NCBI GenBank assembly: GCA_030427085.1 | Contig: JAUHXH010000003.1 | Coordinates: 434,001 to 498,000 of the forward strand | Length of the DNA: 64,000 bases | Reading direction: 5' to 3' | Source of the DNA: Gammaproteobacteria bacterium | Lineage (GTDB): Bacteria > Pseudomonadota > Gammaproteobacteria > Pseudomonadales > Halieaceae | Part shown: one piece after another, positions 54,199 through 61,384 of the stretch | Layout: every line of letters begins with the position of its first letter | How positions within the stretch are numbered: position 1 is the stretch's first letter | The notes under the pieces: generated by a model | Databases searched by the model: none | Told to the model about the DNA's origin: nothing | What the model saw: only the letters and a program-made list of their open reading frames with translations | Position numbers and translations under genes: made by a program

Positions 54199-55827
54199 GT
54201 GGCAACCATGACGCAACTCACCGCCTTTGAACGATTCCTGTCGCTCTTCACCAACCTGCGGCCGAGAGAAGGCTATTCTGCGGGCCTGCTGTGCCTACAG
54301 GCCTTCTGCCTGATGTTCTCCTATTACCAGCTGAAAGTGCTGCGGGAGCCCCTGGTGCTGGCCGATGGCTCGGCGCTGGTAAAGAACTATGCCACGGGTG
54401 CTCAGGCTCTGATCCTCCTGATTGTCGTACCCCTGTTCGCGCGCGCCTATCTGGCGGCCAGCCGGCAGGAAGAGCGCTTCCACCTGTTCCGGCGAGTCAT
54501 GCTGTTCTTTGTGGCGAACTTGCTGCTGTTTATGGCCGCCTATGGGTCGGGGGTCGCCATCGGCGTTGCGTTCTATATCTGGCTGGGCATATTTTCGGTG
54601 ATGGCCCTGGCTACTTTCTGGGCCTACGCCGCCGACCTTTACAATCCCCGTTCTGGCCAGCGCCTGTTCCCCTTGATTGCAGCAGCGGCAGCACTTGGCG
54701 CTTTTATCGGCTCGGGGGTGACCGCGCCGATAGATACCGTGGTCGGGCACCTCGGGGTAATGTTGATGGCCACGGCCTTGCTGCTGGTTCCCGTGTGGCT
54801 CTGCCCGCGGGTTGAAGGACACATTCCCGCTGGCTCGCGAGCACCCAATGGCGACGGCGCGAACGCTGCGCAACCCTCAAACCTGTTTCGCGGCTTTGCG
54901 CTGGTCATGCAGAGTCCCTATCTGCTGCGCATCGCGCTGCTGGTTATCCTGCTCAACCTGATCAATACCAACGGCGATTTCATTCTCACCAGCTTTGTGG
55001 AAAACCAGGCGAACACGATGGCGCTGGATGCAGAGAGTCGTGATCGCTTCATCACCGACTTTTTCGGGGGTTATATCGCCCTCTACACCCTGCTCAGTTT
55101 TTTAATACAGTTGTTTCTGGTGTCACGGGTTTATGACGCTATTGGCGTTCGTGGCGCCCTGTTGATACTGCCCATTGTGATGATACTGGGCTACGCCGCT
55201 ATGGCGCTCTTCCCTCTGCTATGGGTCGTTCGAGCCGCGCTCACCGCAGAAAACAGCTTCGCCTATTCGCTGGAATCTACCACCCGCCACGCCTTGTTTC
55301 TGCCACTGCAACGGGAGGAAAAGTACGTCGGCAAGCACACCATCGACACGTTTTTCTTCCGTCTGGGTGACATCCTCTCCACGGCAACGGTTTACACAGC
55401 GCGGGAGGTTCTGCGCCTGAGCATTGGCGCCTTTATCGGCATCAATATCCTGCTGGCGTTGATCCTGCTGGTGGTCTCCATCGGGATCGGCCAGCGCCAC
55501 AGCGGTGCCATGCGAAAAAACCTGGGGAACCTGCCGCCCGTTCCCACACGCAAGATAGACGACCTGCAGATTCCCGTTGGTGAACTCACCCGCTACTCCC
55601 TGGGCGAGCATCTGTTTGAAGATCCGGATGAAGGGGACGCGCTCAGCTATGCAGCCTATCTGGGTGAGCGAAAACAACTACCCCGCTGGGTGCGCTTTGA
55701 CGCCCTGCGCCGGGAATTCCGCTTCGAGCCACCGGCACACACCCGTGGCGAACTGGACATCCTCGTGATCGCCCGTGACTTTCAGGGGCTGGAAGCCACG
55801 GTGCGCTTCAGGGTTCAGCTTCACTGA
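54199..55827 (+). CDS. ATP/ADP translocase (NTT)-like transporter fused to a C-terminal cadherin-like domain
   Basis: 542 residues from GTG 54199 (ATG 54208 gives 539). About twelve membrane helices fill residues 25-430; YYQLKVLREPLVLADG, the WAYAADLY segment and LESTTRHALFLPLQREEKYVGKHTIDTFFFRLGD (parts ESTTRHALFLPLQ and HTIDTFFFRLGD) match the nucleotide-transporter family of Npt/Tlc proteins. The last ~98 residues form a dystroglycan-type cadherin-like (CADG) domain: FEDPDEGDALSYAAYLG, LPRWVRFDALRREFRFEP, GELDILVIARDFQGLEATV. By an even helix count this domain would be cytoplasmic, unusual for CADG. It overlaps its convergent paralogue by 20 bp. Confidence 0.75.
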   Translation: MATMTQLTAFERFLSLFTNLRPREGYSAGLLCLQAFCLMFSYYQLKVLREPLVLADGSALVKNYATGAQALILLIVVPLFARAYLAASRQEERFHLFRRVMLFFVANLLLFMAAYGSGVAIGVAFYIWLGIFSVMALATFWAYAADLYNPRSGQRLFPLIAAAAALGAFIGSGVTAPIDTVVGHLGVMLMATALLLVPVWLCPRVEGHIPAGSRAPNGDGANAAQPSNLFRGFALVMQSPYLLRIALLVILLNLINTNGDFILTSFVENQANTMALDAESRDRFITDFFGGYIALYTLLSFLIQLFLVSRVYDAIGVRGALLILPIVMILGYAAMALFPLLWVVRAALTAENSFAYSLESTTRHALFLPLQREEKYVGKHTIDTFFFRLGDILSTATVYTAREVLRLSIGAFIGINILLALILLVVSIGIGQRHSGAMRKNLGNLPPVPTRKIDDLQIPVGELTRYSLGEHLFEDPDEGDALSYAAYLGERKQLPRWVRFDALRREFRFEPPAHTRGELDILVIARDFQGLEATVRFRVQLH

Positions 55828-57178
55828 TCGTGTCTGACTGAGCCCGCTCCGCGCTTTCCTGGTCTGCGAGCAATTGCTTGCGCTCTCGCAGAATCAGCAT
55901 CGCCACGGTTAGCGAACCGGCTGCCATAACCGCGGCTACCGGCACGAAGTTCACCGCCTCCATGGCCAGCCAGTTCAAGCCGACAAACACCAGACCGGCC
56001 TGCAGTAAATCACCCAGCCTCACGCCAAAGGAATCGATAACCGCACGGGCTTCGTACTTCTCCTGCCGGGACAAGGGCAGGTACAACATCTGACGCATGG
56101 TGTTCTGCAGGGAGTAGTCCAGGCTGTTCTCCACGATTTTGTAGTAGCGAAACAAGGCTATCGCCGGCAGCACCAGCAAGGCGCTGTAACCGAGGAACAC
56201 GATCGCCGGGGTAAAGGCGAAGGCCACTGCGAAGCCGGCAAAACGGAGCAGGCGCGACACTACAAAGTACTGAATCAACACACCCGCCAGATTCACCGTG
56301 AAATAGAACAGGCTGTAGAACGCGCCGACATAACTGCTCTTGCTGACGGTGACCGCACCGGCGGCACTCTCCCGCGCGTAGTCCGCTTCGAGGAAGGCGG
56401 CCAATAGGTACTCGCCGGTGGTGTTCACCAGATTGATCAGGATGACAAAAGCCGCCAATAACAGCAGGTAACGGCGACTGAGCACCAGCTTGAAACCGGC
56501 CAGTAAAGAGGGTTCCGATTTGGCCTGGTCCTCGCCACCCTGCGACGACGCCGGGATGCGCCCGGCCGCCCAATGCGCTGGAATCAATGACAGAAAGAGC
56601 ACACCGGCACCCGCCAGAATGAGCCCGTAAGCGTCGAAGTGATTCACCAGTTCCCGCGCCACTGCCGATCCCACCCAGGCACCCAGCGAAGCGCCCAGCG
56701 CAACGATCACAAACAGGCGCTCGCCGGCCTCGCGGTTGTAGAGGTTGGAGGCAAAGGCCCAGAACTGCGCCACCACCATTACACCGTATACGCCCATCCA
56801 CACGAAGTAGGCGACCGATACCGATAGTCCCGCCTTGCCGGCCGCGGCAAACGCCACCAGAATCGCCACGAAAGCCAGTGTGACAATCTGCATGTAGCGG
56901 CGGGTATCAAAGCCTCGCGACAAACGGCCGTACACGGGTATGAAGAACAACAGGAACAGCGCCTGTGCGGCGACCGCGTAACTGCGAATTTCCGCGGTAC
57001 CCTCGGTGAGGATGAGCATTTCGCGAGCGGGCTTGAGCAAATAGGCGGTGAACAGAATCAGGAACAGGCTGGCAAACATCCCCAGCACGCTGCTCAGCTC
57101 ACCGGGGCGCAACTCCACCCCCAACAGGGCGGTTCGCTTCAGCCACGCAGTGAAGGTGGTGCCGTTGGCCATGGTCAA
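55808..57178 (-). CDS. ATP/ADP translocase (NTT)-like transporter, short paralogue
   Basis: 456 residues with about twelve membrane helices. It parallels the plus-strand neighbour through AYLLKPAREMLILTEGTAEI, WAFASNLYNREAGERLF and LDYSLQNTMRQMLYLPLSRQEKYEARAVIDSFGVRLGD (key parts SLQNTMRQMLYLPLS and VIDSFGVRLGD), and lacks the cadherin-like tail. Known NTT proteins exchange ATP and ADP across a membrane; substrates of these free-living bacterial relatives are largely untested. Its start is one base after the stop of the exported phosphatase/kinase gene, so the two are almost certainly translated from one mRNA. Confidence 0.78.
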   Translation of the reverse strand: MTMANGTTFTAWLKRTALLGVELRPGELSSVLGMFASLFLILFTAYLLKPAREMLILTEGTAEIRSYAVAAQALFLLFFIPVYGRLSRGFDTRRYMQIVTLAFVAILVAFAAAGKAGLSVSVAYFVWMGVYGVMVVAQFWAFASNLYNREAGERLFVIVALGASLGAWVGSAVARELVNHFDAYGLILAGAGVLFLSLIPAHWAAGRIPASSQGGEDQAKSEPSLLAGFKLVLSRRYLLLLAAFVILINLVNTTGEYLLAAFLEADYARESAAGAVTVSKSSYVGAFYSLFYFTVNLAGVLIQYFVVSRLLRFAGFAVAFAFTPAIVFLGYSALLVLPAIALFRYYKIVENSLDYSLQNTMRQMLYLPLSRQEKYEARAVIDSFGVRLGDLLQAGLVFVGLNWLAMEAVNFVPVAAVMAAGSLTVAMLILRERKQLLADQESAERAQSDTISEAEP

Positions 57179-57179
57179 C

Positions 57180-59069
57180 TTACTCCCCGGTGCGCTGTGC
57201 TTCTTTGAAGATCAGGTCTCGCCGTTCCACGATGGCTTCGATCTGCTTAGGGTGCAAATAGGGGCCCAACTGCGTGGTCAGGTTTTCTTCATTCAGCGCC
57301 TGCAATTGCTCTGCAAACAAATCGGACAGCAAAATCGGCACCTTTCGATACTGCTTGGGGCGATCGTCCCGGGTTCGGAAGGCCAGGGTGTGATCGATAA
57401 AGCGCATCATGAAGTCGTCCTTGGTCCACAGGATATTGGTGAGATTGCGGTCTTCGTTGTAAATCAGGATGTCGAAGATAAAGCGCAAGCGATACTGCTC
57501 GTTTTTCTTGCAGTAGCTGTTAAACGGGACTTCATCTTCCATCCGGTCGCGCTCATTGATTGTGCCGGTGAGCCAATCCCCCAACGCACCCTCATCCCCT
57601 CGGACCTTACGTAGCACCGAAACCGGCACCAGCTGTAAATCCAGCATGCGATCTAGCTTGTAGGCTGCCACGTCGTAAATGAAGCGATCGCTTTTATCAT
57701 TGCGGCGCCGGTTATAGGACGATCGGCTTTCTATTCCCGGATTGGTGTCCTCATATTTGAATACGGCATCACGTTGTTCACCATTCGCAGATAGCGTGAC
57801 ACGCTTGGGCTTGGTAATCCCGGTGCCGATATCCTGTACATTGACGATCTCACCCCTCTCCATGAAAGCTTCCAGGGCACCGTCGCTCATGCTCGCCGTG
57901 CTCTGGGACAGACTGCGCTGTTCGGCCCGCGGCTCCGCACGACCAGTGCCCAGATAGTGCACCCAGGTTTCACCCCCTGCGGACACCAGTGCGGACGCCC
58001 TTCCCTTGTACACGCTTTTCAACATACCGGTATCCAGGCGGATCACCCGTCCACCCATACGCTGCACCACGTCCCCGGAAGTGGGTGTATGTCCCACCAC
58101 CAATTGGCTCGCGCCCACTTTCTTCAGGAAACGCTCGGTGTTGAATGCCTCCGAGTAGGGATGGCACAGGGACGAACCCCGATACCAGTTGGGACTGTCC
58201 TGACCGAAGAGAAAATACTCCTGCGCGTCGAACAGTACCTGCAGCGGTGTGAACCACTCTGCCCGCTCCTTGGGATTGGCGGCAGCAAACTCCTCCGCTC
58301 GCGCGTTGAGAAAGTCCAGGCGCTCATGGAAAGGAACGAAGCGCGGCATCACGCCAGCCGCCTCCAGCGCCTCCAGGGCGTCGAGATAGCCCTTTAAATC
58401 ACTGGCCGCCTTCTCATTGAGGCTACCGATGGTTTCCGTGCTGTTAGCGGAGGCGATACCCCCGTGCATGTAAGCCTTGTCGTTGACCTTGACCACCAGG
58501 GGCTGGCGGATCAGCCATTTGCCCAAATGACCGTCCGGCGCGTAGGCCTTCTTCAAACCAATAAACCCGGGGGGAACTTTGCGATCGAATTCCGCCCGTA
58601 ATGCGGAAGCATCCACATCGGGATTGAAGCGGCGATACTCGGCAAACAATGCCTCCCGCTCCGCAGCCGTTTCCATGTCAGCAAAACTGGCGAATTCCTG
58701 AGGGCTGACGTAGCGCAGGTCACCGGTCAGCACCATCACTTCATGGTTGCCGAGGGTCAGGTGGACTGCGCCGCCCGCTGCTTGTGCCTGCTGCTCAAGT
58801 TGCATCAGCAGCTCCACGACCTGCCGCGATCCCGGACCGCGATCGATCAGGTCGCCCACGCTCACCAGGTGCGCGTTGCCGCCACTCCAGTTGTTCTGGT
58901 TGTCGATGACGCCCAGTTCACGCAGCAGGGCGACCCAGTCATCATATGCCCCGTGCACATCGCCGAAGGCCACCACACGCCCGGGGGCAGTGAACTCCTG
59001 TGCCTGGCCAGGAACGGCAAGAACCGAAACACACAGGGCAATAGCAATCAGTCGAAGCAGCAAGCGCAT
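57180..59069 (-). CDS. Exported metallophosphoesterase fused to a FAM20/HipA-like kinase domain
   Basis: 629 residues. A Sec signal peptide (RLIAIALCVSVLAVPGQAQ) is followed by a calcineurin-like phosphatase (30-~380): GDVHG (Asp37, His39), GDLIDRG (Asp73), GNHE (Asn108, His109), MHGG (His202) and VVGHTPT. From ~395 a kinase-like domain shows GTGITKPKRVTL, VFKYED (Lys438), IYDVAAYKLDRMLDLQLVP, DILIYNEDRNLTNIL (Asp540, Asn545) and RFIDHTLAF (Asp559), matching the Lys/catalytic Asp/metal Asp plan of FAM20, HipA and PI3K-like kinases. Both activities are predicted, none proven. It would act in the periplasm; the adjacent NTT-like gene could supply nucleotide. Confidence 0.8.
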   Translation of the reverse strand: MRLLLRLIAIALCVSVLAVPGQAQEFTAPGRVVAFGDVHGAYDDWVALLRELGVIDNQNNWSGGNAHLVSVGDLIDRGPGSRQVVELLMQLEQQAQAAGGAVHLTLGNHEVMVLTGDLRYVSPQEFASFADMETAAEREALFAEYRRFNPDVDASALRAEFDRKVPPGFIGLKKAYAPDGHLGKWLIRQPLVVKVNDKAYMHGGIASANSTETIGSLNEKAASDLKGYLDALEALEAAGVMPRFVPFHERLDFLNARAEEFAAANPKERAEWFTPLQVLFDAQEYFLFGQDSPNWYRGSSLCHPYSEAFNTERFLKKVGASQLVVGHTPTSGDVVQRMGGRVIRLDTGMLKSVYKGRASALVSAGGETWVHYLGTGRAEPRAEQRSLSQSTASMSDGALEAFMERGEIVNVQDIGTGITKPKRVTLSANGEQRDAVFKYEDTNPGIESRSSYNRRRNDKSDRFIYDVAAYKLDRMLDLQLVPVSVLRKVRGDEGALGDWLTGTINERDRMEDEVPFNSYCKKNEQYRLRFIFDILIYNEDRNLTNILWTKDDFMMRFIDHTLAFRTRDDRPKQYRKVPILLSDLFAEQLQALNEENLTTQLGPYLHPKQIEAIVERRDLIFKEAQRTGE

Positions 59070-59132: not shown

Positions 59133-61295
59133 CTAATCCTGCCAGTGCAGAACATTGCGCAAAACAGACCAGCGCGGTTGATGTTCACGTACCGCACCAC
59201 CGCGCATCCAGTATTCGAACAGGCGCGCACTGCTGCCGTCTTCCCGCTTGAGCGCAATCCAGCTGCTGACGAACTCCGCCAGGGTCAGTTCTCCCCGCGG
59301 TAGCGCATAGCCCACCGGCACCTTCACACCACTGGCCGAGGGTACAACCGTGTAGGCGGGATAACGGAAGCTGTAGGCAGTCCCCTCTTCGGCCGTAAGC
59401 AGCAGCGCTCGATGGGTGTTGGTGTCAGCGTCTCTACCGGTCTCGGTAAAGAAGTCTTCCGCCGCCTCCAGCCACTCGATGCGAGCCTTGGGCAGCATTT
59501 TTTGCAGCCCGGGCACGAAGTAATGTGAGCTAACCACATAAATGACGACATTGTCTGCGTCGCGCAGTCGCGCCAGATCGGAGAACAGCGAGCGCTTGTG
59601 GTCTTCCACGATGAAGGCCTGATTCAATTCCAGATAGGGGCGGGAGAAGGCCATACGCGACATGCGGTCGGGCAAGGTTGAAATACAGGACATGGCAATG
59701 TCCAACTGTCCGGTTTCCAGCATTTCCGGCAGATCAGGGAACCTGAAGGGCGAGAACTCCAGCTCGACACCAATGTCGCGAGCCAGGAAGTGGGCCATCT
59801 GTACGTCGTAACCGACCAGTTCCCCCTCAGAGGTCAAGAAGCTGCACGGCAGGTTACGTGCCCGATAGCCTACGCGCAGCACGCCGCGGCGCATCACCTG
59901 ATCGAGTCGGTTGCGCACATCGTCACTGACTGGATCTGCCTGCGGGTTGTCTACGAGGCGAGCATCAACGGGCTCCTCCAACAGGTGAAGCCCGGCGAGC
60001 ACTTCTTCGCGTGGGCGGGGCTCCGGCACCGCCACAGCAAAGTAGGCGCGCAGCAACAACACCAGTGCCAGCGTGCCTGCCAGCGTCAGCAGGAGGTACC
60101 GTCCGATTGAGCGAAGGTTCAATGTCAGCCCCCCGGTGACCGCCAGCGTGCCCAGTACGCCCAGTACGATAATGTGCAGGGCAGCCAGCATGGCCCCGAA
60201 ACGCGCCACTACGATCCCCGTCACCAGGAAGAGTTGGAACATGTCAGAGGGGATACGCAGGGAGTTCAACAGGTGTGGTACAGCAACGTTGATGGAGCCG
60301 AACAGGCTGAACAGGCCGTTGAAAGCCAGGGAAAATCGCTGTGAGAGCTCCAGCGGCGTGTCGGTAAACCAGGCCGCAAACAGCACGAACAACAGTACCA
60401 GCATCTTGCCCAACGAGGGGAAGTTGAAAGAAACCGGCACAATGATATCCACCGAGGATTCAGTCTGTTCTGAATCGATGCCTCGCCTGGCCAGCAGCGT
60501 TTTACAGTTCTCGGCAATCTGCGGCAGCACTACAAACTGATTGCCGGTGGCAAACGCGGTCACCAGAGTGTCGCGGAAAGTCACCAGCACTTCCCGGAAG
60601 GGAATGCCTGACAGGGCACTGATCAGCCCAGGGAATACCCAGAACGTGACCATCAGCGCCAGCGCCACGTAGGTCACCAGATAGACCTGCACCTGCTCCA
60701 GTTCATCAATGGTCAGCGTTCCCGCGGCGGCAGCGGCGATGGCAAAAATACCGTAGGGGGTGAGGCTGACGATAATCTGGTTGATCCGGGCAAAGGCCTT
60801 CGTGAGAGCCTCGAAAATGGCCAGCACCTGTTTTTTGTCGTCGGGATCGACTGATATCAGCGCCACCCCCACCAGGATGCTGAACAACACCACGGCGGGC
60901 ACCATGTTGTTAGCCAGTGAGAAGAAGATGTTGGCGGGAATGTAGAGTTCGATCAGGTTCGGCTGTTCCGGAGCAGCCAGGCCCGGCGCCCCGTAGAAGG
61001 CCGCTCGCTCCAGAGCTGGGAAGGCCGTCGCGACCAGGAACACCAGTAACAGCGCCAGCGCCCAGATGGCCAGCAATATCAGCCCCGCGCGGCCAGCCAG
61101 CAGGCGGGCATCCCTGAGTTGCAATCGGCCCAGCCCCGCGATCAGAGATACGACGATGTAGGGCAGCACTGTAATCTGCAACAATTTGACGAACAGGTCA
61201 CCCACGGTCTTCAGCGGGGCTGCCAGTTCGCCAAAGAACAGACCGGTAGCAATACCGGCCAGCAGGCCGATAATGATTCGCGCAGACAAACTCAT
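59133..61295 (-). CDS. Dicarboxylate/amino acid:cation symporter fused to a periplasmic solute-binding domain
   Basis: 720 residues from ATG 61295. Residues 1-~430 form a GltP/DAACS symporter: LLQITVLPYIVVSLIAGLG, NNMVPAVVLFSILVGVAL, TAFATGNQFVVLPQI and VPVSFNFPSLGK. From ~465 a family 3 solute-binding domain follows (GVLRVGYRARNLPCSFLTSEGELVGYDVQMAHFLA, key parts LRVGYRARNLPCSF and LVGYDVQMAHFLA; LDIAMSCISTLPDRMSRMAFSRPYLE). Such domains bind amino acids or opines. A symporter with a built-in binding domain is unusual. Located 63 bp upstream of the phosphatase/kinase gene on the same strand. Confidence 0.88.
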   Translation of the reverse strand: MSLSARIIIGLLAGIATGLFFGELAAPLKTVGDLFVKLLQITVLPYIVVSLIAGLGRLQLRDARLLAGRAGLILLAIWALALLLVFLVATAFPALERAAFYGAPGLAAPEQPNLIELYIPANIFFSLANNMVPAVVLFSILVGVALISVDPDDKKQVLAIFEALTKAFARINQIIVSLTPYGIFAIAAAAAGTLTIDELEQVQVYLVTYVALALMVTFWVFPGLISALSGIPFREVLVTFRDTLVTAFATGNQFVVLPQIAENCKTLLARRGIDSEQTESSVDIIVPVSFNFPSLGKMLVLLFVLFAAWFTDTPLELSQRFSLAFNGLFSLFGSINVAVPHLLNSLRIPSDMFQLFLVTGIVVARFGAMLAALHIIVLGVLGTLAVTGGLTLNLRSIGRYLLLTLAGTLALVLLLRAYFAVAVPEPRPREEVLAGLHLLEEPVDARLVDNPQADPVSDDVRNRLDQVMRRGVLRVGYRARNLPCSFLTSEGELVGYDVQMAHFLARDIGVELEFSPFRFPDLPEMLETGQLDIAMSCISTLPDRMSRMAFSRPYLELNQAFIVEDHKRSLFSDLARLRDADNVVIYVVSSHYFVPGLQKMLPKARIEWLEAAEDFFTETGRDADTNTHRALLLTAEEGTAYSFRYPAYTVVPSASGVKVPVGYALPRGELTLAEFVSSWIALKREDGSSARLFEYWMRGGAVREHQPRWSVLRNVLHWQD

Positions 61296-61384
61296 CAAAG
61301 GACGTCCCTGTGTCGCTTGTTGTATGCCTGAAGCATGATAACAGGTAGCATTGCGAGGCGAGATACCCCAATGCGGAGTCAACC

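Follow-up and report, generated by a model that had tools for sequence, protein, structure and literature searches.

The window analysed here is a stretch of 64,000 nucleotides (positions 434,001 to 498,000 of contig JAUHXH010000003.1, assembly GCA_030427085.1) from a gammaproteobacterium of the family Halieaceae, and it contains two adjacent minus-strand genes: one for a protein with a phosphatase and a kinase-like domain (hereafter PK) and, directly downstream, one for a transporter resembling the nucleotide transporters of the NTT/TLC superfamily (T1). An initial annotation had proposed that the transporter delivers ATP to an exported kinase whose action is reversed by the fused phosphatase. 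Both open reading frames (ORFs) were recovered as annotated (Table 1). The transporter gene had been said to begin one base after the PK stop codon; an in-frame TTG does exist at 57178, which gives an ORF of 55808-57178 (-), but the ATG at 57172, located 7 nt past the stop and 10 nt behind a GGGGAG, appears to be the likelier start.

Table 1. Features of the PK-T1 locus (positions in the window)
Feature	Position	Strand	Basis
PK, exported bifunctional protein, 629 aa (predicted signal peptide, PPP-type metallophosphatase, FAM20-like atypical kinase)	57180..59069	-	ORF, Pfam, alignment, models
PK signal-peptide-like N-terminus, residues 1-23 (MRLLLR...GQA)	59001..59069	-	Hydrophobic in aligned homologues, by eye
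PK metallophosphatase domain, residues 31-382 (GDVHG, GDLIDRG, GNHE, H202, H327)	57924..58979	-	PF00149; 2z72 match
PK atypical kinase domain, residues 395-629 (K438, D466, D540-R-N-x-x-N545, D559)	57183..57887	-	Alignment; Foldseek and VIA, FAM20 first
Codon of invariant Cys302, PK phosphatase domain	58164..58166	-	Cys in 30 of 30 rows
Codon of invariant Cys520, PK kinase domain	57510..57512	-	Alignment; likely disulfide partner of Cys302
T1, NTT/TLC-superfamily transporter	55808..57172	-	ATG start; TTG at 57178 possible; PF03219
GGGGAG, likely ribosome-binding site of T1, inside the 3' end of the PK coding sequence	57183..57188	-	Sequence
T2, second NTT-superfamily transporter, 542 aa, with C-terminal extension	54199..55827	+	TLC 26.6 bits

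The N-terminal half of PK had been described as a calcineurin-type phosphatase domain, in agreement with its match to Metallophos (PF00149, E 2e-12, 48.4 bits, cut-off 21.5). The GDxHG, GDxxDRG and GNHE motifs and the metal-coordinating histidines of PPP-type metallophosphatases are present, and D37, H39, G72, D73, D76, R77, N108, H109, E110, H202 and H327 are invariant in 30 aligned rows of PK homologues. The cold-active phosphatase of Shewanella (2z72) matches this domain both in a sequence search (E 1.2e-34) and in structural comparison by VIA (Z 31.1, root-mean-square deviation (rmsd) 2.7 over 271-272 residues), and the N-terminal half of PK is accordingly modelled as an intact PPP-type metallophosphatase with the fold of the Shewanella enzyme.

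Assignment of the C-terminal domain is supported by structural models. In profile searches, HipA_2 (PF20613) reaches 25.2 bits in PK, just under its cut-off of 27, which is cleared by the homologue L108 (31.0 bits), and the PI3_PI4_kinase profile matches the C-terminal region with an E-value of 0.036. Fam20C (PF06702, cut-off 26.8) gave no match in PK and scores below the cut-off in the homologues L107 (13.5 bits) and L108 (15.6 bits), and CotH (PF08757) gave no match in PK at E 10. An AlphaFold model of the whole protein, computed from an alignment of 30 sequences (pLDDT 90, pTM 0.88, with a low-confidence stretch at residues 15-21), retrieved in Foldseek Fam20C (5.1e-7), PI4KII-alpha (5.6e-7) and Fam20A (7.0e-7), a tie between FAM20 and PI4KII, and its VIA list was filled by phosphatases. 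When the kinase domain was modelled separately, with middling confidence (pLDDT 72) and poor reliability near the active site, all 24 Foldseek matches at E <= 0.001 were FAM20-type, including 4kqa and 4kqb ('Golgi casein kinase'), which we take to belong to this type. With the same model FAM20 ranked first in VIA (Z 11.6, rmsd 3.5, 188-192 residues), followed by PI4KII (9.7), CtkA (8.0), HipT (7.2), HipA (6.8) and CotH (6.0), where a Z of about 7, the level of HipA and HipT, may mean only a common arrangement. A profile of the kinase domain found only non-significant matches in the PDB, the best three being FAM20 (E 0.63-0.85).

The three residues singled out by the initial annotation, Lys438, Asp540 and Asp559, are correctly placed and correspond to the beta3 lysine, catalytic aspartate and metal-binding aspartate of FAM20-type kinases; D540 is kept in all 30 distinct homologues (from an alignment of 31 rows in which the gene of the window is counted twice, the second time as locus L002), and K438 and D559 in 29, the exception being the divergent L081. 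The fold ranking together with these conserved residues indicates that the C-terminal domain adopts, as modelled, a FAM20/PI4KII-like atypical kinase fold with FAM20 as its nearest relative. Since the Fam20C cut-off of Pfam is not reached, membership of PK in FAM20 proper is not claimed. A non-kinase fold for this domain was rejected on the basis of the Foldseek and VIA searches.

Export of PK is suggested by its N-terminus. A Sec signal peptide had been annotated, and a hydrophobic, signal-peptide-like N-terminus is recognizable by eye in all 30 aligned rows (the starts of L003, L005 and L030 having been set by position, not at an ATG). In addition, 29 of the 30 mature proteins possess exactly two cysteines, one per domain (C302 and C520), both of which are invariant, and the pair is also kept in L107, L108, L131-L133 and L082, which lie outside the alignment, as well as in L081. 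One invariant cysteine per domain, retained across homologues even where one of the domains has decayed, fits a disulfide formed in the periplasm, and an inter-domain C302-C520 disulfide, as expected of an oxidising compartment, is likely.

The two domains of PK have decayed separately in different lineages. L108, from a metagenome-assembled genome (MAG) labelled 'K189A clade', no longer has the phosphatase motifs and keeps those of the kinase intact, whereas L131 (genome G840), L132 and L133 (G676), L081 and L082 have lost the kinase motifs and largely kept those of the phosphatase, with no GNHE pattern found in L082; G840 and G676 are the only other PK-bearing genomes in a class sample of 369 gammaproteobacterial genomes. 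Since the motifs of each domain were lost separately in different homologues, some lineages keep the kinase or the phosphatase alone. The kinase-degenerate proteins, most of whose phosphatase motifs and cysteine pair persist, imply that a non-catalytic role of the kinase domain exists in the wider family, and would be compatible with the C-terminal domain of PK being a pseudokinase or another transferase (e.g., for AMP transfer) that regulates the phosphatase. For PK itself such a role is highly improbable, considering that the clade of the window keeps its catalytic residues almost without exception and that L108, having lost the phosphatase motifs and kept those of the kinase, points to selection on the kinase in its own right. 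Beside the kinase-degenerate homologues lie genes for two exported proteins of similar appearance on inspection by eye, at L132 (9452-10546) and L131 (7333-8448), of which the former has a weak CotH match below the cut-off (E 0.0057) and the latter none.

The NTT-like identity assigned to T1 held up: it scores 47.2 bits against TLC (PF03219, cut-off 21), and a profile of 12 T1-type sequences (A4) retrieved from the PDB at E <= 1 only 9j3n (ADP,ATP carrier protein 1, 8.6e-15) and 9j3j (a chloroplastic carrier, 1.5e-10), placing T1 by sequence in the NTT/TLC superfamily. These structures presumably come from Chlamydia and Arabidopsis, respectively; we found no paper describing them.

Genes of this superfamily are closely associated with PK in Halieaceae. 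Matches to PK were found in 31 of 140 family genomes, including that of the window (G047 having a degenerate copy and G048 a contig-end fragment), and in 10 of 390 genomes of an order sample, only one of which lies outside the family and carries a degenerate copy. We compared 29 PK loci, namely the window and 28 others, of which those with a name are mostly Halieaceae such as Parahaliea, Halioglobus and Seongchinamella; a contig-end fragment, L031, was left out of the alignments, and alignment A2 holds 21 rows. At 14 of these loci the next gene downstream of PK, on the same strand, is a TLC gene, ten with a T1-type carrier and four (L083, L084, L085 and L110) with a carrier of a distant NTT lineage in the same slot. 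At L089 a convergent T2-type gene adjoins PK, and at L106 a TLC gene is found upstream. All 11 family genomes with a carrier at least 66% identical to T1 have it beside PK, and carriers of T1 or T2 type at least 35% identical to T1, a threshold set after a gap between 35% and 29% had been seen, are present in 26 of 31 family genomes with PK and in 2 of the 109 without it. By genus, 11 have both PK and carrier, 3 PK only, 1 the carrier only and 13 neither (Fisher P 1.7e-4, relatedness not corrected for).

Such an association could also arise if PK and T1 were uncoupled and had remained neighbours only through shared descent of one Halieaceae gene order, given that much of the family shares the order DCT-PK-(T)-QOR and that PK often occurs without T. 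We consider this unlikely in view of several cases in which the pairing recurs in another setting. L107, a contig of an MAG labelled Deltaproteobacteria, carries PK (58% identity in the kinase domain) and T1 (56%) together in a cassette that lacks the usual Halieaceae neighbours and has the same G+C content as its flanks (0.42). The NTT lineage that occupies the T1 slot at four PK loci is a second case, and separate pairings of related carriers with CotH kinases and with a gene pair designated gA and gB, described below, are others. Family synteny as the sole basis of the link was rejected in view of L107, the other NTT lineage found at the T1 position and the CotH-linked operons. None of the three outcomes that the initial annotation had named as refuting its proposal was observed: the C-terminal domain folds, as modelled, as a kinase, the export-type N-terminus is conserved, and the genomic association reaches beyond one species.

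The CotH pairings come from the class sample. All three carriers outside Halieaceae with scores over 400 bits (in G688, G712 and G631) directly follow a gene for an exported CotH kinase, stop and start codons overlapping (-4 nt), and a fourth, split carrier gene in G693 starts 6 nt behind CotH; the CotH proteins preceding these carriers match PF08757 with E-values of 4e-60 to 2e-41. Each belongs to a polysaccharide-type operon with the order GT2 glycosyltransferase, an uncharacterised gene, GH113-type protein, another uncharacterised gene and exported CotH kinase. Among six copies of this operon (L184, L185, L186, L190, L225 and L226), five end in an NTT-type carrier; in the fifth copy, that of G853, the slot after CotH holds a divergent TLC of another lineage. 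Four of the five CotH-carrier cases may go back to one ancestral operon.

A third type of pairing was detected in G044 (L118, 6238-10110), where gA, gB and, behind them, a carrier 44% identical to T1 form one operon-like array. The gB product is an exported metallophosphatase (PF00149, 4e-14), and gA encodes another exported protein, which contains motifs in kinase order (FK ... QQDRxGNxD ... LNDNDAG) and no Pfam family above cut-off. Comparison of gA with the PK kinase domain by hhalign fell short of significance (E 0.069) and aligned no more than the VPVAV region, so that the term kinase-like refers here to the order of the motifs; the sole match of a gA profile in the PDB was the lectin PapG (E 0.75). 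The gene is present in six of the 140 family genomes, including that of the window, and neighbours gB in all six (in the genome of the window the pair lies at L140 7536-10065, C2:165595 region), the carrier being there only in G044.

In an NTT tree of 55 sequences, whose rows were picked by similarity to T1 and from which a 139-aa fragment at L190 was left out, ten T1 rows form one starred clade and every one of them lies beside PK. A starred group of 38 holds this clade, the four T1-type carriers of CotH operons, the gA/gB carrier, carriers linked to acid phosphatases and T2, and twelve carriers lacking recognised kinase or phosphatase neighbours fall outside it. The carriers that replace T1 behind PK, like the CotH partner in G853, are placed on the far side of the tree, where L225 joins the L083 group through a long branch and with uncertain placement.

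Taken together, these data suggest that PK and T1 constitute a module for phosphorylation in the periplasm, with a nucleotide carrier of its own as the source of supply, a reading to which we assign a probability of roughly 0.57. PK would be secreted by the Sec system, with a single disulfide probably linking its two domains. Its FAM20-like domain would use a nucleotide to phosphorylate a protein or glycan in the periplasm or on the cell surface, and its PPP-type domain would remove phosphate, probably from the same substrate; reversal of the kinase action by the fused phosphatase is plausible. T1, in the inner membrane, would supply the nucleotide, most simply by carrying ATP out and ADP or AMP back. 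The main argument for a supply rather than an uptake role of the carrier is its recurrent coupling with unrelated exported kinases. The reading of the initial annotation is thereby supported in part.

A considerable number of observations weigh against this reading. At 13 of the 29 PK loci no TLC gene is found beside PK (no phmmer match at E 1e-5), on which ground a general requirement of PK for an adjacent carrier was rejected; eight of the genomes concerned have a carrier of at least 35% identity elsewhere, G034, G035, G115 and G877 have only distant TLCs, and G014, which is 91% complete, gave no NTT match at E 0.001. No carrier of at least 35% identity was found in G048, whose PK is the contig-end fragment. 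Genomes with kinase-degenerate PK homologues still carry carriers, one gene away at L081 and on another contig in G840. Nine of the 38 carriers in the clade containing T1 are without a recognised kinase or phosphatase neighbour. The sixth copy of the CotH operon, in G576, has no TLC in the slot, and 22 of the 27 CotH loci, which are distributed over 20 of the 369 class genomes, have no TLC within about 1.5 kb, so that CotH as a whole shows no tie to NTTs; a general pairing of the two was rejected, with 5 of 27 loci only.

The remaining points concern what T1 transports, and bear on the possibility that PK acts on a phosphorylated small molecule in the periplasm, forming it or degrading it, and that T1 imports or exports this compound (in nucleotide salvage, or as an NAD precursor or sugar phosphate) instead of ATP for the kinase. 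T1 reaches only 30.2 bits against the model of NTP/NDP exchange transporters (TIGR00769), whose cut-off is 387.2, and its profile alignment has a 4-residue gap at the GKSGG stretch of the solved NTTs; it is thus a divergent NTT, far from those characterised, and a putative ATP/ADP carrier. Moreover, among the five next-best carriers of the class sample (357-371 bits), three are located beside PF03767 acid phosphatases and two beside unrelated genes, and carriers related to T1 in such company fit a salvage role instead. Nevertheless, an exported ATP-dependent kinase would require periplasmic nucleotide regardless, the same carrier group also follows CotH kinases in a glycan-type operon, and T1 can be replaced in the PK slot by a TLC closer to the solved NTTs (at L083, 74.3 bits, above the score of T1, and E 1.2e-14 against 9j3j). 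We therefore regard transport of a small-molecule product or substrate by T1 as possible yet doubtful. The carriers that adjoin PF03767 acid phosphatases are NTT-type proteins at L156, L187 and L189, where the phosphatases have lipoprotein-type N-termini; these pairs perhaps serve nucleotide or NAD salvage.

A wider proposal would be that one NTT lineage of free-living bacteria is a dedicated nucleotide supply for exported kinases, that it has been joined independently to a FAM20-like kinase-phosphatase, to CotH and to a kinase-like protein and metallophosphatase encoded by two separate genes, and that the PK and CotH slots can hold a second NTT lineage; for this generalization we see the chances as evenly balanced. 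The periplasm is held to lack ATP, and the ATP supply of kinases located outside the inner membrane is therefore an open question, for which the recurrent pairing of exported kinases with NTT-family carriers offers a concrete candidate source. The pairing would moreover point to a possible role of NTT genes in bacteria that live freely and, if the proposed module is real, it would be a bacterial counterpart of the ATP-fed phosphorylation of proteins or glycans in the Golgi. The parts belong to known families, and no description of the module of carrier plus exported kinase was seen among the top-listed papers of the open-access literature searched, in which only some of the queries came close to this combination.

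Several neighbouring features complete the picture of the locus. T2 is convergent with T1 and overlaps it by 20 bp; its C-terminal extension matches He_PIG with 17.2 bits, under the cut-off of 24, and whether it takes part in the PK-T1 system is uncertain. T2-type frames longer than 900 aa are present in L085 and L110, and away from PK, T2-type genes occur at several loci near genes for TPR and low-molecular-weight-phosphatase-like proteins. The gene upstream of PK (59133-61382, minus strand) encodes a fusion of a sodium:dicarboxylate symporter (PF00375) with an extracellular solute-binding domain (PF00497) at the C-terminus, and this fusion gene adjoins PK at many of the loci compared. A promoter scan was unremarkable (1 found vs. 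1.7 expected), and the G+C content of the window is 0.60.

Comparison with known systems helps to define what is particular to PK and T1. FAM20A, FAM20B and FAM20C, the best structural matches of the PK kinase domain, modify secreted proteins or glycans within the secretory pathway, a compartment into which ATP must be brought. PK differs from them in being bacterial, in its fusion to a PPP phosphatase and in scoring below the Fam20C cut-off. A word search of a Fam20 review (PMC7948968) for bacteria or prokaryotes, CotH and nucleotide transporters turned up a single mention, among its references. The Shewanella cold-active protein-tyrosine phosphatase of PPP type (2z72, 1v73) matches the other half of PK; its chain has no kinase domain. 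Legionella HipT, HipA and HipA_2-type kinases are distant fold relatives of the kinase domain (Z about 7). HipA is described in PMC12189002 as a toxin acting inside the cell, whereas PK looks exported and carries a phosphatase domain.

CotH kinases (PF08757), known from the Bacillus spore coat and related settings, resemble PK in being bacterial atypical kinases, some of which pair with the same transporter group, and differ from it in belonging to another kinase family (VIA Z about 6) without a fused phosphatase. We know of no NTT partner of CotH in Bacillus, no search aimed at one having been made. CotH is also characterised, in the review PMC12189002, as an atypical kinase similar to Fam20C, and PMC12345266 reports that the pel cluster of Streptococcus intermedius encodes a secreted CotH-domain protein whose mutant aggregates less. 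According to PMC5381601, NTT genes are widespread in free-living bacteria and experiments cover only a small fraction of the diversity of the family. With the ATP-ADP carriers of solved structure (9j3n and 9j3j) T1 shares its superfamily, by Pfam cut-off and similarity; unlike the known NTTs, it scores far under the TIGR00769 cut-off, lacks GKSGG and is found next to an exported kinase rather than in an intracellular parasite or plastid.

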